DNA of 32,983 nt, taken from the NCBI GenBank assembly GCA_016280355.1, contig JAEEGO010000192.1, positions 1 through 32,983 of the forward strand, in the 5' to 3' direction. A program made the position numbers and the translations under genes. Origin of the DNA: Lachnospiraceae bacterium (GTDB taxonomy: Bacteria; Bacillota; Clostridia; Lachnospirales; Lachnospiraceae). Position 1 is the first letter of the stretch; each line of letters starts with the position of its first letter. The notes below the pieces were generated by a model. That model was not told the origin of the DNA and did not search any database. It was given only the letters and a program-made list of their open reading frames with translations. Below, in pieces: positions 1,380-26,737 of this stretch.

Positions 1380-3031
1380 CATATCTTGAAGAATATCACC
1401 GGGCGATACAGAGCGGTGAGCTGGTCGCAGGATACTGGATAAAAAAAGAGATCTCGCAGCTTGTGAAGGATATGCGGGATGAACGGTATATCTACGACAC
1501 TGCGGAGGCTCACAGGCGGTTCAGATTCATGGAAACGCTGTGCTTTCAGTCAAAGCAGCCGTATTATATGCAGCCTATCAGTCTGATGCCGTGGCAGCGT
1601 GCATGGTGGGAGGCAGTGTACAGCTTTCGCATGGCTGACACGGGGAAAAGACGGTTTACGGAGGGACTGCTTGAAGTGGCTCGTAAGAACGGCAAATCCA
1701 CCATGTTCGCGGCGGACGGGATGTGTGACCTGTTCATCGGGGAAAGCGGCATGGACATCTGCTGTGCATCCAACGATGACAGACAGGCGCGGCTCATCTG
1801 GTCGGAGATAGCGGGGATGAGGTCAAGGCTCGATCCGAAAAAGGCTATATCATCACAGAACCTTACGGAGATAAAGAACCGTGTGAAGGGTACGACAGTC
1901 TTCAGACTGTCGAGCAGGACACAGAACAAGGACGGTTTCAACATATCGAAGACTTTTCTCGATGAGAGCCATGATATATGCGAGGAAAACGGACAGAGTG
2001 AGGTCGCGGAGGCTTGCTGGCGCGGAATGAGCTCGAAGGATGAGCCACTATTTCTCAATTGCACTACGCAGGGCTTTAACCGGGAATGCTATCTTGATAA
2101 AAAAATACAGATGGCGAAGGAGATCATCAGCGGTGAATGGGACGATGAACATTTCATCGCATTCCTGTTCGAGCAGGACAGTGAATCGGAGATATGGCAG
2201 GACAAAAGTTCCTGGGCTAAGTCAAATCCGTCTTTGCCGTATGGAGTAAAGAAGATCTCACAGCTTGAGCGTGATGTTGAGAGGTCAAAGCATGACAAGG
2301 CGACACGCATCCATATGCTGACGAAGGATTTCAACGTCCCGCAGTCGGATGCAGTGGGATGGCTCATGCTTGAAGACTATGATCAGCCGTATGCTCCCGT
2401 GAACATGGACAAGCTCAGAGGGGCGCTTCTCCTCGGGGCGGTGGACTTGTCGGCTACAACGGACTTGACAAACGCAAAGGCGATGATCATGCTGCCGGAT
2501 GAGAAGAAGAAATATGTGCTGACAAAATACTTTATCCCGGAATGCAAGCTGACGGACAGTGCGGATAAAGAGGCAGGCGCTGACTATGTGCAATGGGCGC
2601 GTGACGGTTCTGTTGAGGTACATGAGGGCAAAAATGAGGTGGATCTTGAACGGGTGGCGGACTGGTTCTATTCACTGTATACGGAGTGGGGACTGCGCCC
2701 GTACAAGATAGGCTATGACCAGCGGTATGCAAAGACATTCAAGGAGCGCTGCGATGCTTACGGATTCGAGTATGAGATACTCGCACAGGGGCGTGCTCTG
2801 TCGAATGCGATGAAGCTGACTGAGGCAGACCTGAAGGCACGGCTCATCGAATACGGAGGCGATCCCGCTGACAAGTGGTGCCTGGGCAACTGCTGCTGTC
2901 AGGTGGACAACACGGGAATGATACAGCCTGTGAAGGCCCACTCAACTCACAACAAGCGCATTGACGGTGCGGTCACTCTGATCATGCTCGAAGAGATGTA
3001 CAGGAGATACAAAAATATATGGGCAAAATAA
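1376..3031 (+). CDS. terL: terminase large subunit
   Basis: 551 aa; Walker A-like EVARKNGKS, PWQRAWWEAVY, later DLSATTDLT nuclease-region motif; followed by portal/protease/capsid. Confidence 0.93.
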   Translation: MTYLEEYHRAIQSGELVAGYWIKKEISQLVKDMRDERYIYDTAEAHRRFRFMETLCFQSKQPYYMQPISLMPWQRAWWEAVYSFRMADTGKRRFTEGLLEVARKNGKSTMFAADGMCDLFIGESGMDICCASNDDRQARLIWSEIAGMRSRLDPKKAISSQNLTEIKNRVKGTTVFRLSSRTQNKDGFNISKTFLDESHDICEENGQSEVAEACWRGMSSKDEPLFLNCTTQGFNRECYLDKKIQMAKEIISGEWDDEHFIAFLFEQDSESEIWQDKSSWAKSNPSLPYGVKKISQLERDVERSKHDKATRIHMLTKDFNVPQSDAVGWLMLEDYDQPYAPVNMDKLRGALLLGAVDLSATTDLTNAKAMIMLPDEKKKYVLTKYFIPECKLTDSADKEAGADYVQWARDGSVEVHEGKNEVDLERVADWFYSLYTEWGLRPYKIGYDQRYAKTFKERCDAYGFEYEILAQGRALSNAMKLTEADLKARLIEYGGDPADKWCLGNCCCQVDNTGMIQPVKAHSTHNKRIDGAVTLIMLEEMYRRYKNIWAK

Positions 3032-3060
3032 TCCGCCTGCATTGTGCAGGCGGATATTGT
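3031..3060. terminator. bidirectional terminator between terL and the convergent cassette
   Basis: ATCCGCCTGCA-TTG-TGCAGGCGGAT (11-bp perfect stem) followed by ATTGTTTT; overlaps terL stop. Confidence 0.8.
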
Positions 3061-3061
3061 T

Positions 3062-3307
3062 TTACAGAGGGCGGCTGAGTTCATAGAGCTCGTGAGGGGC
3101 AATATCCTGCCCGTGAGCCCACTCTATGCCGTTACCGCCTGATATGACTCTAACACTGCGGAAATAGTTCACATCTTTCAGCTCACTGTACCAGTTACCT
3201 GTGATATAGGGGCTGACATCGAACAGCTTTTTCTCACTGTTCTCGTATTCAAGACGAAGGCGGTAATTATCCTCTGGTGTGACTGAGGTAAGTTTAGGCT
3301 GCAGCAT
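3062..3307 (-). CDS. DUF2442-like protein
   Basis: 81 aa with LRLEYENSEKKLFDVSPY and ISGGNGIEW patterns typical of DUF2442; RBS GGAGG. Confidence 0.65.
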   Translation of the reverse strand: MLQPKLTSVTPEDNYRLRLEYENSEKKLFDVSPYITGNWYSELKDVNYFRSVRVISGGNGIEWAHGQDIAPHELYELSRPL

Positions 3308-3316
3308 GATGACCTC

Positions 3317-3583
3317 CTATCTGAGGGGCTCGATCTTGAAGAACTGATCACCCTCCGAAAGTATTTTCCAGTTAGCTTCAAGATCGTCCTTATGTATCTC
3401 TATCCATGCCAACAGAAGTTTCATTTTGTTTTTGGGAATAGAGCCTTCAAGAACATCGCCTTCAAGAGATACTACGACTTCATCGCCCGAATATTCTGCA
3501 TGAATATGGGGTACATTGTGTTTTCCGCCTATCTCTCTGTACATTCTGACTATTATCCCGTAAAATATACTTAATACCGGCAT
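3317..3583 (-). CDS. DUF4160-like protein
   Basis: MPVLSIFYGIIVRMYREIGGKHNVPHIHAEYSGDEVVVSLEGDVLEGSIP is DUF4160-like; RBS AGGAGGAATAAT before internal ATG at 3583. Confidence 0.75.
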   Translation of the reverse strand: MPVLSIFYGIIVRMYREIGGKHNVPHIHAEYSGDEVVVSLEGDVLEGSIPKNKMKLLLAWIEIHKDDLEANWKILSEGDQFFKIEPLR

Positions 3584-3584
3584 A

Positions 3585-3788
3585 TTATTCCTCCTGAAAT
3601 TGTGTTCCGTGAGCGGACATATCCTCCTCAATGAGGCGGACTATATAGGCGTTCAGACTTTCACCGTTGGCGGTGCAGTATTCCTTTATACGGTCACGCT
3701 GACCTTTTTTCACAACGAATTTTATCTGGTCGTAGTTCTTCTGTGTATAGCGCTGTACTGCTTGTGCTCCTGCTTTTGTATATGCCAT
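3585..3788 (-). CDS. Arc/RHH-like small DNA-binding protein
   Basis: MAYTKAGAQAVQRYTQKNYDQIKFVVKKGQRDRIKEYCTANGESLNAYIVRLIEEDM; beta-strand plus two helices typical of Arc-like RHH. Confidence 0.7.
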   Translation of the reverse strand: MAYTKAGAQAVQRYTQKNYDQIKFVVKKGQRDRIKEYCTANGESLNAYIVRLIEEDMSAHGTQFQEE

Positions 3789-3811
3789 GATTATCACCGC
3801 CTTTCATAGAT

Positions 3812-3840
3812 ATTATAGCAGAAATATATATTAGTAACAA
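3812..3840 (-). promoter_or_regulatory. sigma70-like promoter of RHH/DUF4160/DUF2442 operon
   Basis: On minus strand TTGTTA (3840-3835), 17-nt spacer, TATAAT (3817-3812). Confidence 0.65.
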
Positions 3841-3843
3841 TAT
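3828..3843. promoter_or_regulatory. imperfect operator copy
   Basis: ATATTAGTAACAATAT; 14/16 match to the palindrome at 3894-3909. Confidence 0.6.
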
Positions 3844-3888
3844 ACATAATACACAAATATGCTCCTTAATGTTTGGCTGATATGTGCA

Positions 3889-3917
3889 TTGATATATTAG
3901 TACTAATATGTTATAAT
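3889..3917 (+). promoter_or_regulatory. sigma70-like promoter for small membrane peptide
   Basis: TTGATA, 17-nt spacer, TATAAT. Confidence 0.8.
3894..3909. promoter_or_regulatory. palindromic operator in promoter spacer
   Basis: ATATTAGTACTAATAT, a perfect 16-bp palindrome. Confidence 0.7.
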
Positions 3918-3942
3918 AATATACAGAAAGGAGGTGAGAAAA

Positions 3943-4068
3943 ATGCAGAAGGTCACAAAAAAGATTAAAGAGCTTGCAAAGCTGGTCGCACAGCTCAACA
4001 AACTCTTAATCAAAGTCATTAGCTTAGTGGGCTGGGTTCTGATACTCATTCACTTAGTTAATAACTAA
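3943..4068 (+). CDS. 41-aa amphipathic/transmembrane peptide
   Basis: MQKVTKKIKELAKLVAQLNKLLIKVISLVGWVLILIHLVNN; strong SD AAAGGAGGTGAG; below the size cutoff of the ORF track. Confidence 0.7.
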   Translation: MQKVTKKIKELAKLVAQLNKLLIKVISLVGWVLILIHLVNN

Positions 4069-4103: not shown

Positions 4104-4146
4104 ACCTTAAGAATATTATACAATAAAACTTCTGCATTTGTCAAGT

Positions 4147-4269
4147 ATGAAAAGTGAAAAAAAGGAACTTTTCAGAGAGAGCGGCAAGCTGCTCCGGCAG
4201 GTAATACGGCTCATAGGTCTGCTTTGCGTGCTTGCTTTGCTCATCAGAGCCATAATTGATATGGTCTGA
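4147..4269 (+). CDS. possible second 40-aa membrane peptide
   Basis: MKSEKKELFRESGKLLRQVIRLIGLLCVLALLIRAIIDMV; charged N-terminus plus one hydrophobic segment; weak SD. Confidence 0.4.
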   Translation: MKSEKKELFRESGKLLRQVIRLIGLLCVLALLIRAIIDMV

Positions 4270-4277
4270 CATCAGAT

Positions 4278-4320
4278 CCCCGCCGTGGATGGTGTAACAT
4301 CTGCGGCGGGGTTCTTGTTT
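4278..4320 (+). terminator. rho-independent terminator
   Basis: CCCCGCCG...CGGCGGGG followed by TTCTTGTTT. Confidence 0.75.
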
Positions 4321-4396
4321 ATAAAAACTATGTCTAACATTTTCAGGAGTATTGAAAATAGGCTTGACAATGGGGTAAAATGGTGACAGGTATATC

Positions 4397-5644
4397 ATGA
4401 GCTCGTTTGCGGAGGTGAGAGATACGGGGATATTCGATTTTTTCAGGGGGCGGAAGTCCGGTGATGCAGCAGGACGGCATTATGCGGCTATGCTCAACGG
4501 TACTATGCCCATATACTCACAGTACGGGACGGATATATATTCCTCCGATGTGGTACAGCAGGCTATAAGCTGCATAGTCATGGAGATGAAAAAGCTCACT
4601 CCGAGACACATCAGAGTGGAAAGCGGTGATATGCTCCCTGTGGGAAGCAGTATTGACAAGCTGCTGAGAAAGCCCAACGGGATGATGAGCATATCGGACT
4701 TCATCGAAAAGGTCTACTGGCAGCTGTTCCTTAACTACAACTCTTTCATCGTTCCCACCTATGTGAGGAAATACAATGCGGACGGCTCATCCTACAAGGA
4801 ATACACGGGACTTTATCCCGTTGCTCCGGTACAGGTGGATTTCATCCGTGATGCTGCTGATGAGCTGGGCGTGCATTTCGTATTTTCGGGCGGGTATGAG
4901 TGTGATCTGCTGTATTCGGATGTGATCCATCTGAGATACAGATACTCCGTCAACGAGTTTATGGGCGGAAATGAGTTCGGGCAGCCCGACAACAGGGCTC
5001 TGCTCAAGACACTGGAGCTAAATGAGACGATGCTGACGGGGGTGGGTAAGGCTCTCAAGAGTTCCTTCTCCGTCAACGGCATCATCAAATACAACACGCT
5101 GCTCGATAATGGCTCGATGGACAGGGCGATAAAGGAACTGGAGGCGCATCTTGCCAACAATGAGAGCGGATTCCTGCCGATGGATTTGAAGGGTGAGTTC
5201 GTTCCGCTCAACAACAAGATACAGCTTGTAGATCCCAACACACTGAAATTCATTGATGAGAAGATCCTGCGGACATACCGCGTTCCCGTGGCGATACTAA
5301 CGGGAGATTACACGAAACAGACCTATGAGGCATGGTATCAGGGCTGCCTTGAGCCGTTGATAATCAACATATCCCAGGCATTCACGAACGGGCTGTTCAC
5401 GGAGCGGGAGCGTTCCTTCGGAAATGAGATAAAATTCTATCCGCATGAGCTGATATTCATGACAACGGAACAGAAGCTTGCCTTGTTCGACATTCTGACG
5501 GACAGTGCAAGCTGCTACAAGAATGAGCTGAGAACGGCGTTCGGTATGTATCCGCTTGAGGAGCTCAAAGGTCAGCTGGCGGTATCGAGCAATAAATCAA
5601 ACGCTATGAACAATGAAGCGGACGGAGGCGGAGATAATGGGTGA
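4397..5644 (+). CDS. portal protein (HK97 family)
   Basis: 415 aa; position after terL; AVQQAISCIVMEMKKL-type N-terminus, LRKPNGMMSISDFIE and RVPVAILTGDYTKQTYEAWYQ. Confidence 0.9.
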   Translation: MSSFAEVRDTGIFDFFRGRKSGDAAGRHYAAMLNGTMPIYSQYGTDIYSSDVVQQAISCIVMEMKKLTPRHIRVESGDMLPVGSSIDKLLRKPNGMMSISDFIEKVYWQLFLNYNSFIVPTYVRKYNADGSSYKEYTGLYPVAPVQVDFIRDAADELGVHFVFSGGYECDLLYSDVIHLRYRYSVNEFMGGNEFGQPDNRALLKTLELNETMLTGVGKALKSSFSVNGIIKYNTLLDNGSMDRAIKELEAHLANNESGFLPMDLKGEFVPLNNKIQLVDPNTLKFIDEKILRTYRVPVAILTGDYTKQTYEAWYQGCLEPLIINISQAFTNGLFTERERSFGNEIKFYPHELIFMTTEQKLALFDILTDSASCYKNELRTAFGMYPLEELKGQLAVSSNKSNAMNNEADGGGDNG

Positions 5645-19313: not shown

Positions 19314-19727
19314 ATGAGCATAAATATAGCAAAACTCACCTTCGGCACGGTTGTGACCGCCTTTTCCGCCTTTATCGGCGGGATAGACGGGATCATGATC
19401 GCTCTGGTGGTGTTCATGAGCCTGGACTATATCTCGGGTGTGGCAGCGGCAGCGAAAAAGCGGGAGCTCTCATCCGAGGTGGGCTTCTGGGGGCTTGTGC
19501 GGAAGATATGCATAATCGCGATGATAGGTGTTGCAAACCTGATAGATGTCCATGTCGTCGGCAAGGATGTTTTCAGGACGGCTGTGTCGCTGTACTACAT
19601 AGGCAACGAGGGTCTGAGCCTGCTGGAGAATTTCGGGGAGCTTGGCGTGAAGTATCCCGAAAAAATAAGGGTGCTCCTGAAACAGCTCAGGAATGATAAT
19701 GACAAGGAGAAAGAGAACGATGGATGA
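19314..19727 (+). CDS. holin (phage_holin_4 / toxin-secretion family)
   Basis: 137 aa; hydrophobic segments and MSLDYISGVAAAAKKRELSSEVGFWGLVRKICIIAMIGVANLID. Confidence 0.9.
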   Translation: MSINIAKLTFGTVVTAFSAFIGGIDGIMIALVVFMSLDYISGVAAAAKKRELSSEVGFWGLVRKICIIAMIGVANLIDVHVVGKDVFRTAVSLYYIGNEGLSLLENFGELGVKYPEKIRVLLKQLRNDNDKEKENDG

Positions 19728-20103: not shown

Positions 20104-20796
20104 ATGTATACAAACAGCCCGCTCGTGGTATATACGAAGCTGTCGCCGAACCATTCGGGGCAGCGCACTCATACGATAGACAGGATAACGCCGCACTGTG
20201 TCGTGGGGCAGTGCTCCGTTGAGGTGGTCGCCGAGGTATTCGCGCCCGTGAGCCGACAGGCATCATGCAATTATGTGATAGGGGCAGACGGGCGGATCGG
20301 CATGGTATGCGAGGAGAAAAACCGCTCATGGTGCTCATCCTCCGCCGCCAACGATCAGCGGGCGGTTACGATAGAGTGTGCAAGCGATGTGACCGCGCCC
20401 TATGCTTTCCGTGATGTGGTATACAAGCGGCTGATAGAGCTATGCACCGATATATGCAGGCGCAATGGCAGGAAAAAGCTGCTGTGGCTCGGCACGAAGG
20501 AGAAGTCCCTCGCCTATGAGCCGAAAGCTGATGAGATGGTGCTGACCGTTCACAGGTGGTTCGCGAACAAATCCTGTCCCGGGGACTGGCTCATGGAGAG
20601 GATGGACGATCTTGCCGGAAAGGTGACTGCTGCACTCTCCGGGGATACGGCAGCTCCTGTAAAAAATGACCCGAAGTATCTCTATAATGTGGTGGTCGGG
20701 GTCTATGGTGTCAGATCGAATGCGGAAGCGGCGCTGAAAGAGGTGCAGAAGATCTGTCCCGATGCTTTCATCAAAAGGACGGTGAAGCCCTCATGA
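20104..20796 (+). CDS. N-acetylmuramoyl-L-alanine amidase endolysin
   Basis: ITPHCVVGQCSVE, CNYVIGADGRIG, SSAANDQRAVTIECA typical of Amidase_2; C-terminal SPOR-like YLYNVVVGVYGVRSNAEAALKEVQK. Confidence 0.9.
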   Translation: MYTNSPLVVYTKLSPNHSGQRTHTIDRITPHCVVGQCSVEVVAEVFAPVSRQASCNYVIGADGRIGMVCEEKNRSWCSSSAANDQRAVTIECASDVTAPYAFRDVVYKRLIELCTDICRRNGRKKLLWLGTKEKSLAYEPKADEMVLTVHRWFANKSCPGDWLMERMDDLAGKVTAALSGDTAAPVKNDPKYLYNVVVGVYGVRSNAEAALKEVQKICPDAFIKRTVKPS

Positions 20797-21044
20797 CAGT
20801 CGTTACTTATGGCGGCACTCTGAGCCGTGCGGAAATGGATATGATAAAGCAGCGGGCCGCTGAAAAAAAGGGCTGCGATCATGTTACCGTCACCGTAGAC
20901 GGCGACTTCCTTGATATAGATTATCATATAATGCCCTTCGAGCGTATACGCAGGATCACAGGCTATTTAGTCGGGACCCTTGACCGGTTCAACGATGCAA
21001 AGCGTGCGGAGGTCGGAGACAGGGTGAAACATGACATTTTATAA
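20793..21044 (+). CDS. hypothetical protein
   Basis: 83 aa ORF overlapping amidase stop. Confidence 0.55.
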   Translation: MTVVTYGGTLSRAEMDMIKQRAAEKKGCDHVTVTVDGDFLDIDYHIMPFERIRRITGYLVGTLDRFNDAKRAEVGDRVKHDIL

Positions 21045-21118: not shown

Positions 21119-22168
21119 TTATTGTGCCATAACATTGAGATGCTTATAGTCGAGCATAAGCACGGTGCGGCGGAGCTCCTCGATGTCCTTATGGGTATAC
21201 ACGCTGTCGGTGATAGACTTCGAGGCGTGACCGACAAGGCGTTCAACGCACACATTATCCGCCCCTGCCGATTTAAGGCGGGACACGAACGTATGCCTTG
21301 TATCATGGGGGAGATGTCCCCAGCGCTCACGCATCACATCACGGAGCTTCTGCTGATATGTGGGAAAGAGCTTTTTGCGCTCTGCCTGCACATACTTCGT
21401 TACGAGCGGCTCTATATCGGGATGGATGGGGACGATGCGGTTTCTGCCTGCTGCAGTCTTCATACCGCCCGTAAAGGTCATCTCATCCAGTGATACATTA
21501 GCTGATGTCATGGTGAGGAGCTCCTCAACGCGGAATCCGGTATACAGCAGGATGACGGTGCAGTCTGTGTATACATCGGAAGGAGCGGAAAGGACTGCGG
21601 AGATCTCGCCGGGAGTGAATATCCTGTGCTTTTCCTCTGCGGGGATGGTGTAGTTCATGTCCTCGCTGTCGATGAGACGGGCGGGGTTCTTCCCTATCAG
21701 ATCATGGCGCTCGGCATAGCTGAATACACCGTCAATGACTATCTTGATATTGTTGACCGTGCTCTTTCCGCTCCCTGCGCTCATCCTGAATATCAGGAGA
21801 AGATCGTCCAGGGTTATCCGCCGCATGATCTTATCATGGACAGATGCACAGTGCGAAAAAGCGGCGCGGTAGGAACCCAGTGTCGAGCTGCTCTTTCCTG
21901 CATTCTCCTTTTTCTCGATCCATCTGGAGAAGATATCGGCAAAGGTGGAACTGTCGGACACGTTGAACGGATGTGAAGCGTATTCGGCAAGGGCGTTCTC
22001 GGCTTCCTTGCGTGTATGGAAGTATCCTATGACGATGCGCTTTGATCTCACCCGTCCGGATGATGTGAGGTCGTATCCGTTGTATACAGCAGGAGACACA
22101 GCTTTCCACGGCTTGCGCCTGCCGTCACATTTTGAAATAGTTCCCGATCCATTCGGTCTTCGTTTCAT
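21119..22168 (-). CDS. int: tyrosine recombinase/integrase
   Basis: 349 aa; TGFRVEELL, HDTRHTFVSRL, GHASKSITDSVYTH catalytic motifs; N-terminal arm-binding-like domain. Confidence 0.95.
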   Translation of the reverse strand: MKRRPNGSGTISKCDGRRKPWKAVSPAVYNGYDLTSSGRVRSKRIVIGYFHTRKEAENALAEYASHPFNVSDSSTFADIFSRWIEKKENAGKSSSTLGSYRAAFSHCASVHDKIMRRITLDDLLLIFRMSAGSGKSTVNNIKIVIDGVFSYAERHDLIGKNPARLIDSEDMNYTIPAEEKHRIFTPGEISAVLSAPSDVYTDCTVILLYTGFRVEELLTMTSANVSLDEMTFTGGMKTAAGRNRIVPIHPDIEPLVTKYVQAERKKLFPTYQQKLRDVMRERWGHLPHDTRHTFVSRLKSAGADNVCVERLVGHASKSITDSVYTHKDIEELRRTVLMLDYKHLNVMAQ

Positions 22169-23390: not shown

Positions 23391-24155
23391 TCACTTTTTT
23401 GCAACGGGGATGACCTTACCGAGGACTTTGCCTATGGTCTCCCATTCGCCGAAGATATCCTCGTATTCGGGGGAGGCATCGTTGAGGGAGTGCAGGGCGT
23501 TGTGGGCGAGCTGTTTTATAAAGACCTCGCCGTCCATACCGAAGATACCTATATCACCTTCACCGACTTCAAGCCCGGGATGGACGAGGACACAGTCGCC
23601 GTCCTCATATTCGGGGCTCATGCTGTCGCCCTCTACGGGTACGACAAAGCACTTGTCGAAGTCTCTCCTCTGTTTGAGCCCTGTCGTATCGTACAGGACT
23701 TCATCGCACTCGGTCTCATCCGTGGGAGCTCCTGCAGACCATGATGCAGCAGCCGCTCCCCTGCGGAACGTCCTGAATTTATGCAGCGGGATGTCGTGCT
23801 CATCGTCATCGTCTTCATCCCGTACCTCTGCCGCCGCTTTTTCAAGGGCATCGCACAGCTCCGTGCGGTGTTTCTTGTCTATGCTCACATATATCTCTAT
23901 GAACTTCTTTTCAAGCTCCGTAATGTCGTAGCGGTTGAGCAGGTCGGCAAGGGAGACAGGTTTCTCCCTTCCGAGAAGGTAGTCCACCGATACGCCGTAG
24001 AAGTCGGCTATCTTGTTTATAGTGGCGATGTTCGGCTCTCGTTCTTCTGCTTCATAGCTTTGATAAGCACGAGGTTTCAAATCTAACTGTTCCGCCGCAT
24101 CTGATATTGACAAATTTTTCTTTCTTCGTAAATCACGAAGTATTTTTCCTATCAT
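23391..24155 (-). CDS. CI-like repressor with HTH_3 and S24 peptidase domain
   Basis: N-terminal HTH (ISDAAEQLDLKPRAYQSYEAEEREPN); VPVEGDSMSPEYEDGD and EVFIKQL Ser/Lys motifs; GAGAGGAGG SD before ATG 24155. Confidence 0.92.
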   Translation of the reverse strand: MIGKILRDLRRKKNLSISDAAEQLDLKPRAYQSYEAEEREPNIATINKIADFYGVSVDYLLGREKPVSLADLLNRYDITELEKKFIEIYVSIDKKHRTELCDALEKAAAEVRDEDDDDEHDIPLHKFRTFRRGAAAASWSAGAPTDETECDEVLYDTTGLKQRRDFDKCFVVPVEGDSMSPEYEDGDCVLVHPGLEVGEGDIGIFGMDGEVFIKQLAHNALHSLNDASPEYEDIFGEWETIGKVLGKVIPVAKK

Positions 24156-24179
24156 TAAATATGCCTCCTCTCGAAAAAT

Positions 24180-24209
24180 AGTATACCACGATTTGTGTAT
24201 GCATGTCAA
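24180..24209 (-). promoter_or_regulatory. repressor promoter (PRM-like)
   Basis: Minus strand TTGACA-18 nt-TATACT. Confidence 0.65.
24187..24197. promoter_or_regulatory. operator O1 (CACGATTTGTG)
   Basis: CAC-N5-GTG palindromic motif in PRM spacer. Confidence 0.6.
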
Positions 24210-24237
24210 TACCATTTATATAAAAATCGCCAAAACT

Positions 24238-24312: not shown

Positions 24313-24341
24313 TTGACAATATACACATAATGTGATATTCT
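24313..24341 (+). promoter_or_regulatory. early promoter (PR-like)
   Basis: TTGACA-17 nt-TATTCT with operator O3 in the spacer. Confidence 0.8.
24324..24334. promoter_or_regulatory. operator O3 (CACATAATGTG)
   Basis: CAC-N5-GTG motif in PR spacer. Confidence 0.6.
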
Positions 24342-24666: not shown

Positions 24667-24830
24667 CCTACATCGTACTCGCGCACTCGCCGAAGACAGG
24701 GTATATGTTCAGGGCTGTACTGAAGGACTGCACCTATAAGGATGTACGGGAGCGGTTCTTTGACAGGTACGGCGATTATGACGAGGGCTTCGTGATAATC
24801 TCCATAACGGAAATATCAAAGTATGTGTGA
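24663..24830 (+). CDS. hypothetical early protein
   Basis: ATGA overlap with previous gene; MTYIVLAHSPKTGYMFRAVLKDCTYKDVRERFF. Confidence 0.55.
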   Translation: MTYIVLAHSPKTGYMFRAVLKDCTYKDVRERFFDRYGDYDEGFVIISITEISKYV

Positions 24831-24840
24831 GGGAAAGAAT

Positions 24841-25146
24841 ATGACATGGACAGGGGTTGAAATGTGGGACGGAACTGCTCACAAGGATGAGATAACGCAG
24901 GCTCTGATGCAGTACATTGATCCCATCGAAAAGAGACAGGCGCTGATAACATCATACGGCGATCTTGCTGTACTGATGAAGAAGACACACAGCACGAACG
25001 GGGCAAGCCGCGGCGAATGGTTCGTAAACGGCATGAATCAGGGCGTGATCATGGAGAAGACGAAAGAACGCTATAAGTGCCGCATCACCTGGAACAAGGC
25101 GGCAAAGATAGTACAGGCTGAGTGCAAGAGGGTGGCAGGGAAATGA
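24841..25146 (+). CDS. hypothetical early protein
   Basis: ATG 24841 with GAGGGAAAG upstream; ~101 aa. Confidence 0.6.
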   Translation: MTWTGVEMWDGTAHKDEITQALMQYIDPIEKRQALITSYGDLAVLMKKTHSTNGASRGEWFVNGMNQGVIMEKTKERYKCRITWNKAAKIVQAECKRVAGK

Positions 25147-25150
25147 AGAT

Positions 25151-25217
25151 GCAGAGGTAGCTCAGATGGTCAGAGCCTGAACATGGTGTCGTGAGTTCGA
25201 GTCTCACCCTCTGCACC
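25151..25217 (+). ncRNA. tRNA-like element 1 (shortened anticodon arm)
   Basis: GCAGAGG/CCTCTGC acceptor, canonical D-arm GCTC-AGATGGTCA-GAGC, T-arm GTGAG-TTCGAGT-CTCAC, ends ACC; only 13 nt between D and T arms. Confidence 0.7.
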
Positions 25218-25332
25218 GGTGTCCTTATGGACATGGTCACAACCTCGGATGCCGTAAGCGGCATCCAACGATGGGAAAGACCACTCCCCTTTCTTTTCAT
25301 GGTGTGAGCCTTTGCACAGCTCACACCGATAT

Positions 25333-25407
25333 GCAGAGTGGAGCAAGCCGGCAATGCCGCCCGCGAAAGCGAGAAAGTAGTGGGTTCAATTCCCACCCTC
25401 TGCACCA
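25333..25407 (+). ncRNA. tRNA-like element 2 (non-canonical lower half)
   Basis: GCAGAG/CTCTGC acceptor, T-arm GTGGG-TTCAATT-CCCAC, encoded CCA; no canonical anticodon arm. Confidence 0.65.
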
Positions 25408-25514
25408 CGGATGCATAACAGCATCCGGCATTTCTACCCACTCAGGGCAGACCTCCGTAGAATATACTTGACAAATCGGAAAGACGGTTGACAGCCGGGA
25501 AAGACCGACAATAT

Positions 25515-25596
25515 GCAGAGATAGTTTCAGTGCTGAGAACGCACAGGCAAAACATCTGACGAGAAGATGCAGGTTCAAATCCTGCCCTCTGCACCA
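25515..25596 (+). ncRNA. tRNA-like element 3
   Basis: GCAGAG/CTCTGC acceptor, D-arm-like GTTT-CAGTGCTGA-GAAC, T-arm GCAGG-TTCAAAT-CCTGC, encoded CCA; non-canonical anticodon region. Confidence 0.7.
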
Positions 25597-25715
25597 ACTG
25601 CCTAACTTGGCAGTCGCAAAGTGTTATTGCTCACATTCGTGTATGCGTTAAACCAAAACAAATGTGATGACAGCCCGGAAAGACGGCAAATTCTATGTAA
25701 AGGGGTGCGTGGTAC

Positions 25716-25973
25716 ATGAATGCTGAATTTATGGATGTAAGGGAGACCTCGAAGGTACTCGGGGTATCGGAACGGTCGGTCAGGGATCACATCCGATCGG
25801 GAGACTGGAGCATACCGTATATCGAGAGCGGCAACAGGATCCTCATCTTCCGTCACAGGTTCTACCGGGATTTCCTCGGATACGGGGGCGGACTTGCCGA
25901 AAGGAACGATATTATCCATACGCAGGATGTAACGGCGAACGACACGAACAGAAGAAAGGCGGTATCGATGTGA
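25716..25973 (+). CDS. HTH/excisionase-family DNA-binding protein
   Basis: MDVRETSKVLGVSERSVRDHIRSGDWSIPYIESGNRILIFRHRF. Confidence 0.75.
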   Translation: MNAEFMDVRETSKVLGVSERSVRDHIRSGDWSIPYIESGNRILIFRHRFYRDFLGYGGGLAERNDIIHTQDVTANDTNRRKAVSM

Positions 25974-26588: not shown

Positions 26589-26737
26589 ACGGATCGCAGC
26601 GAGGAAGGACAACATCAGAAGGGCGCGGGCATGGGCAAGGAGAAACCACAGGTATTTGCTTATCATGTGGGAGCGGTACGGATGCCGCTTACGGCATCCG
26701 ATGCCTTCTGAGGCATCCAAAGAAGGAGGAACAGACT

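Follow-up and report, generated by a model that had tools for sequence, protein, structure and literature searches.

We have found that the early operon of a temperate siphophage of gut bacteria carries an array of three tRNA-like elements, here named E1, E2 and E3, which are very probably not used for decoding; for E1 and E2 this is close to certain, and for E3 it is likely. All three lie on the plus strand between positions 25151 and 25596 of the window, the whole stretch of 32,983 nt that was analysed, where the initial annotation had placed them. The reading that we tentatively prefer, at a probability just short of even, is that the block consists of non-decoding tRNA mimics that would be excised by host tRNA processing and act in trans. 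The balance tips slightly towards selection on the array as a whole, and E2 taken by itself is rather likely to be under selection, judging from a homologue in a related phage.

The phage and the locus around the array

The contig is that of a siphophage, encoding terminase, portal, protease, capsid, tape measure and endolysin, and since a tyrosine integrase (21119-22168; Phage_integrase, 4.6e-14) and a CI-like repressor with HTH_3 and Peptidase_S24 domains (23391-24215) are present on the minus strand, the phage was considered to be temperate. The array is located inside the early operon and extends from 4 nt past the stop codon of an upstream plus-strand ORF (24823-25146) to an HTH_17-like gene directly 3' of it (25716-25973, plus strand), whose Pfam HTH_17 match of 26.5 bits is just under the cut-off of 27. 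Only short ORFs cross the block, and most of them run on the opposite strand, as would be expected of non-coding DNA and in agreement with the earlier claim that no supported plus-strand coding sequence is present. A probable early promoter, TTGACA-17-TATTCT, lies upstream of the operon (24313-24341, plus strand); sites of this kind are not commoner in the window than in shuffled sequences, and identical hexamers with identical spacing are found at the matching upstream place in the early operon of G113 (IMGVR_UViG_3300033463_006042), a contig that has a replication module in common with the window (53%). The closest named phages, the Butyrivibrio phages Arian and Bo-Finn (terminase, 56%), carry a single ordinary tRNA-Gln just ahead of a Cro/CI-type regulator gene. 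No relatives of the flanking proteins were found in IMG/VR. The genome bin to which the window belongs falls in a very large family, probably Lachnospiraceae to judge by how many genera it has.

Two other genes of the window have close counterparts in G113. An 83-aa protein (20793-21041, plus strand), which matches only the last 30 positions of an anaerobic ribonucleotide reductase model, its glycyl-radical end, has an 81% identical copy there, and the ORF at 19314-19727 (plus strand) is 89% identical to its G113 counterpart, most other shared genes being near 50%. Judged by that identity, the latter is a recent exchange.

Anatomy of the three elements

The three elements have in common the acceptor stem GCAGAG/CUCUGC, A73 and a T-arm with a TTCRANY loop, and their 3' ends are spaced 189 nt apart. 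When both strands of the 32,983 nt were scanned for a TTCRANY T-loop accompanied by paired T-stem and acceptor helices, only E1, E2 and E3 were recovered, each with the 3' acceptor CCTCTGC, which bears out the common acceptor and canonical T-arm described in the initial annotation; a stricter scan gave three elements in the window versus none in 200 first-order Markov sequences. In all three the T-stem is fully paired, and so are the first six positions of the acceptor. Only E1 forms a seventh acceptor pair; E2 and E3 have 6 bp and a 7:66 mismatch. The D-loop GG is present in E1 and E2. It had been stated that two of the elements encode CCA, and these proved to be E2 and E3, which encode ACCA; E1 reads ACCG.

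E1 (25151-25217, plus strand; ACC-G at its 3' end) measures 65 nt to A73, with an acceptor of 7 bp, a D-stem of 4 bp and a T-stem of 5 bp. Its D and T stems are separated by 14 nt (25177-25190), which corrects an earlier count of 13, against about 22 normally, and an anticodon arm is absent. Aligned with the tRNA-Arg(ACG) of a genome of the same family (L003), the element lacks 9 nt of the anticodon arm. E2 (25333-25407, plus strand) was previously described as having no recognisable anticodon arm, but a 5-bp anticodon helix was found, in which positions 28-32/37-41 are paired with one C.A mismatch and a GAAA tetraloop replaces the 7-nt loop. The D region of E2 can be folded either as CGGC/GCCG or with a canonical 3-bp D-stem, both of which are invariant. 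E3 (25515-25596, plus strand) has a short variable region and a 3' half shared with L119a, an element of a related contig. The description of its anticodon arm as poor is borne out by the lack of U33 and by other folds that score better, although a 4-bp arm with the 7-nt loop CAAAACA is possible. An anticodon arm of the decoding type, with a 7-nt loop and U33, is found in none of the three.

ARAGORN, which had been proposed as a check, reported no tRNA and no tmRNA in the window. Covariance models, proposed as another, did not place all three as ordinary tRNAs: against Rfam tRNA (cut-off of 29 bits) E1 scored above the threshold at 46.4 bits and E3 below it at 23.2 bits, and E2 reached 20.7 bits with tRNA-Sec, below the cut-off of 47. 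In INPHARED, E2 and E3 matched ordinary tRNAs only, in the 3' half, and E1 also matched ordinary tRNAs only, including nearly full length at 73-75%; no full-length homologue of E1 or E3 was found in another phage. Two other signals were discarded, namely reverse-strand matches to Rfam 'Plastid-ycf2', which we read as tRNA antisense artefacts also yielded by ordinary tRNAs, and a U at position -1, which 60% of ordinary tRNAs carry.

A homologue of E2 in a related phage

A homologue of E2 was located in G113 (L043:719-793, minus strand), between the end of an ORF and a terminator-like hairpin, in a different operon from the array. The two sequences align without gaps over 75 nt, 54 of which are identical. 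The proposed pairs are formed in 20/20 cases in the homologue and in 19/20 in the window. In eight pairs both partners differ: four of them belong to the acceptor and two each to the T-stem and the anticodon stem. Seven are clean compensatory double changes, and the remaining one, 29:40, is paired in G113 but mismatched in the window. Helices take up 16 of the 21 changes, 30 of the 35 unpaired positions are identical, and the 4-nt anticodon loop is kept as a tetraloop. Random substitutions kept as many pairs in 323 of 200,000 trials when placed at the same sites and in 3 of 200,000 when placed at random sites. In this comparison of two sequences the relative keeps all base pairs despite its changed sequence; E2 is thus probably a working tRNA mimic, and its reading as debris is disfavoured.

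The acceptor of the homologue is ATCGTG/CGCGAT and not GCAGAG, suggesting that the acceptor sequence is dispensable for the E2 body, and since the G113 copy sits in another operon with another acceptor the body appears to be a unit of its own. The initial annotation took the common acceptor to imply one recognition partner; this differing acceptor, and bodies that resemble different tRNAs, speak against it. Because E1 is Arg-like and the bodies of E3 and L119a are partly Leu-like, the acceptor common to the elements has the look of a constant handle, which recombination may have dispersed or selection may have maintained at the locus.

A covariance model made from E2 and its homologue (R1) gave 102 bits for both members, the next match, at 36 bits, being an ordinary phage tRNA. 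Over 391 class genomes R1 returned, besides the window, low-scoring sites, and those inspected were ordinary tRNAs, mostly tRNA-Met. The E2 core pattern had 33 matches over GTDB contigs, none of them followed by a T-arm, and these were taken as chance.

Other GCAGAG elements in related contigs

G113 has a second element, GCAGAG...CTCTGCACCA, which is syntenic with the array of the window and lies before an HTH gene. Its T-loop is not canonical, and it is followed in 3' order by a hairpin abutting the CCA, the sequence GACCTCC and a tandem-hairpin module. Two GCAGAG elements, both ending in CCA, were found on the short contig L119: L119a is a Leu-like tRNA with a 5-bp anticodon stem and a 4-nt loop, and L119b has a 14-nt anticodon loop. 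Since E1 is Arg-like and L119a Leu-like, more than one kind of tRNA appears to have become non-decoding, so that a single chance relic is less likely. The earlier proposal of tRNA mimics rather than decoding tRNAs, which had looked to conservation in related phages, is thus supported by the compensatory, tetraloop-bearing homologue of E2 with all its pairs and by these further GCAGAG elements with broken loops.

Most of the other GCAGAG tRNAs from viruses are ordinary species for Tyr, Phe, Thr and Leu, with one further odd case in L149, and those from hosts are ordinary Ser and Leu tRNAs; a narrow GCAGAG pattern search matched one contig, which carries an ordinary tRNA-Phe. A canonical 7-nt loop with U33 is present in 130 of the 140 CCA-ending tRNA-like elements in all fetched loci, a comparison that is partly circular because the aberrant set was picked out for its broken loops.

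Several other peculiarities were seen in phage tRNA loci. An element in L150 (5617-5708, minus strand) ends in CCA with no canonical anticodon loop, and tRNA-like genes with anticodon loops of 13-16 nt were found in L149 (4612-4704), L126 (11126-11218, minus strand) and L119 (1962-2048). The loop stretches AAGGG, AAGGG and ACGTT of L149, L126 and L119b could pair with CCCTT, CCCTT and AATGT of the variable region, which is suggestive of a class with an anticodon-loop/variable-region pseudoknot. In L149 a TnpB-like gene is inserted in the tRNA array (2860-3966), and a tRNA-Leu is apparently interrupted by an intron (about 4132-4473). A structured-looking spacer, GAGCAAATGTNC...CCCAGTGTC...AGACAGGC, lies between tRNA genes in L119 (1869-1960) and L121 (about 4920-5060), and the spacer motif CGTGGRARCTACGNNAGTGYCAA recurs in the L121 tRNA array at about 4818, 5430 and 5495.

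Spacer hairpins and a tandem-hairpin module

The spacers of the array hold a series of hairpins on the plus strand. The 3' end of E1 is abutted by GTGTCC/TTAT/GGACAT (25219-25234), and the remainder of the E1-E2 spacer, which as a whole has a z of -4.75, contains a perfect hairpin GGATGCCG-TAAG-CGGCATCC (25245-25266), a single hairpin with a GAAAGA loop (25272-25283) and, just upstream of E2, the 9-bp hairpin GGTGTGAGC/GCTCACACC (25301-25327). The CCA of E2 is abutted by the 7-bp hairpin CGGATGC/GCATCCG (25408-25427) and that of E3 by the 6-bp hairpin ACTGCC/GGCAGT (25597-25614). Ahead of E3 lie GACCTCC (25450-25456), which resembles the anti-Shine-Dalgarno sequence, and the tandem-hairpin module (25470-25510), in which AATCG-GAAAGA-CGGTT is followed 20 nt on by a second GAAAGA hairpin. 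Another single GAAAGA-loop hairpin stands before the HTH gene (25675-25686). The 22-nt palindromic hairpin of 25245-25266 recurs inverted on the minus strand at 26680-26701, inside a downstream ORF.

Of the 8 aberrant elements, 5 have a hairpin of 6 bp or more no further than 4 nt from the CCA, as against 7 of 227 ordinary tRNAs (Fisher p 7e-6), a comparison that is not circular. G113 and L119 likewise have GACCTCC, situated past the hairpin that abuts the CCA and ahead of the module.

Copies of the module, in which the second hairpin has a GAMAGA loop and follows the first after 19-20 nt, were found in the window, in G113 (two copies), in L119 and L124, in the tRNA arrays of L121, L126 and L149, and in a Helicobacter prophage (BK070131); the loci listed for it are L104, L106, L120, L122, L123, L125, L180, L124, L121, L126 and L149. 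One group of module-bearing contigs has neighbouring genes that look Neisseria-like. Over 11 sequences all seven tested pairs were standard in every case, with a covariation score reached by none of 500 shuffles, and the G-U pairs indicate that the RNA corresponds to the strand bearing the GAMAGA loops. Among 397 family genomes the tandem module was absent except for this contig and one match with two mismatches, and within the scanned loci it matched none of the Rfam families. One of the G113 copies lies in the early leader, directly behind the TTGACA-17-TATTCT promoter, and so has two adjacent stem-loops read from an early promoter, as does put of phage HK022 (PMC9378689). Compared in outline and not by alignment, put is about 70 nt long and the module about 40 nt with GAMAGA loops; no GAMAGA hairpin pair was found in HK022 between 25.5 and 39.5 kb. 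By this analogy, we infer that the module may be a put-like antiterminator that protects untranslated stretches.

A proposed role in trans and its alternatives

In the preferred reading, that of tRNA mimics acting in trans, the early transcript of the phage would run through three tRNA-like units, each offering the features that maturation enzymes use (acceptor/T-arm stack, T-loop, A73 and a CC or CCA end), followed directly by a hairpin and with no anticodon loop to read codons. Host RNase P and 3'-end enzymes would excise the units, and the CCA-ended products may serve as tRNA-shaped substrates or decoys for factors that bind the tRNA elbow or 3' end, for example in immunity that cuts or modifies tRNA tails. 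The tRNA-tail nuclease Cas12a3 cuts CCA tails and tolerates the loss of tRNA arms (PMC12851939), and because arm-stripped substrates are cleaved if CCA is present, anticodon-free decoys are chemically plausible. In the same study it was reported that tRNA-end immunity is not readily circumvented by viral tRNAs (PMC12851939). Such decoys would have to be very abundant, and the element at the array site of G113, lacking a canonical T-loop, is more readily explained as a cis signal than as an elbow decoy.

The units may instead work in cis, as RNase P and 3'-maturation cutting signals that separate the upstream mRNA from that of the HTH gene, with the module as a put-type antiterminator or leader and the anticodon halves drifting freely. 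We consider this unlikely as an account of the whole, although a decoy in trans is only somewhat more likely than a signal in cis. The junction of E1 with the upstream stop codon, the position of both G113 elements after ORF ends, an array site before an HTH gene common to two phages, and the module itself favour cis; the module stands just past the promoter in the G113 early leader and in the spacers of ordinary phage tRNA arrays, and GACCTCC recurs ahead of it. The parts that are kept also match the needs of RNase P, for which an acceptor/T minihelix with CCA suffices. Cutting signals would not predict that E2 keeps its anticodon stem, its 4-nt loop and most of its unpaired positions, or that it occurs at a second place, in front of a terminator, in G113; this conserved body and second location favour trans.

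More doubtful still is that the block is an old phage tRNA array which has lost its decoding parts. This would suit E1, which is tRNA-Arg-like with a simple gap, and E3, with its mismatches and missing U33, and decay is possible as the origin of these two; the site beside a regulator is also that of the intact tRNA-Gln in the distant relatives Arian and Bo-Finn, and some other phage arrays contain odd members too. Decay is hard to reconcile with the six acceptor pairs and all T-stem pairs intact in 3/3 elements, with the compensatory changes by which E2 was kept across phages, and with the hairpins that abut CCA. That the elements are ordinary decoding tRNAs overlooked by gene finders is very improbable: the Rfam score of E1 and the 7-nt loop that can be drawn for E3 would allow it, but E1 has no anticodon arm, E2 a 4-nt loop and E3 no U33, and ARAGORN found none. 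Least credible are attP fragments of host tRNA genes, since, despite an integrase in the phage and such a tRNA 3' fragment in a relative (L032), this integrase is encoded on the opposite strand at a distance of 3 kb and the three copies have paired 5' acceptors, unlike att fragments, which are a 3' tRNA part by the integrase with no paired 5' half.

Comparison with known systems

The tRNA-like domain of tmRNA has an acceptor and a T-arm and no anticodon, as do the elements described here, which differ in having no mRNA-like part and no G3-U70, pair 3:70 being A-U or C-G. The C4 RNA of P1 and P4 is a phage antisense repressor processed by RNase P; E1 to E3 are likewise phage non-coding RNAs expected to be cut by RNase P, but C4 lacks their tRNA anatomy. 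The tRNA-Other of Bacillus cereus, a tRNA-like RNA with no part in translation, is encoded near a genomic island and keeps its anticodon (PMC3399842). It resembles the elements in being a tRNA-like RNA outside translation and adjoining mobile DNA; unlike them, it has a Trp anticodon and neither an array nor a common acceptor handle. Escape from anticodon nucleases and retron effectors has been proposed or demonstrated for phage tRNAs whose anticodon loops are altered, as replacements that still decode (PMC10264068, PMC11555353). E1 to E3 are also tRNA-shaped phage RNAs with changed anticodon loops, but such defence-resistant tRNAs are taken to decode and replace cleaved tRNAs, which E1 to E3 cannot do, and in place of a functional anticodon with protective loop changes E1 and E2 are without an anticodon loop. 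A literature search of incomplete coverage found no match for anticodon-less phage tRNAs.

It is possible, if rather unlikely, that these elements represent a new class of phage RNA, in which a constant acceptor/T-arm handle carries exchangeable bodies devoid of an anticodon and is followed by a hairpin at the CCA end; host tRNA enzymes would release such RNAs, which would be directed against host factors that target tRNA ends. Phage tRNAs are usually read as decoding helpers or as cleavage-resistant replacements, and non-decoding tRNA-shaped phage RNAs kept by compensatory change would hint at a different use of the tRNA shape. With such RNAs it could be tested directly whether tRNA-end-targeting immunity is decoyed by phages, and the tandem-hairpin module, present in very different phages, is a second RNA element that can be tested.
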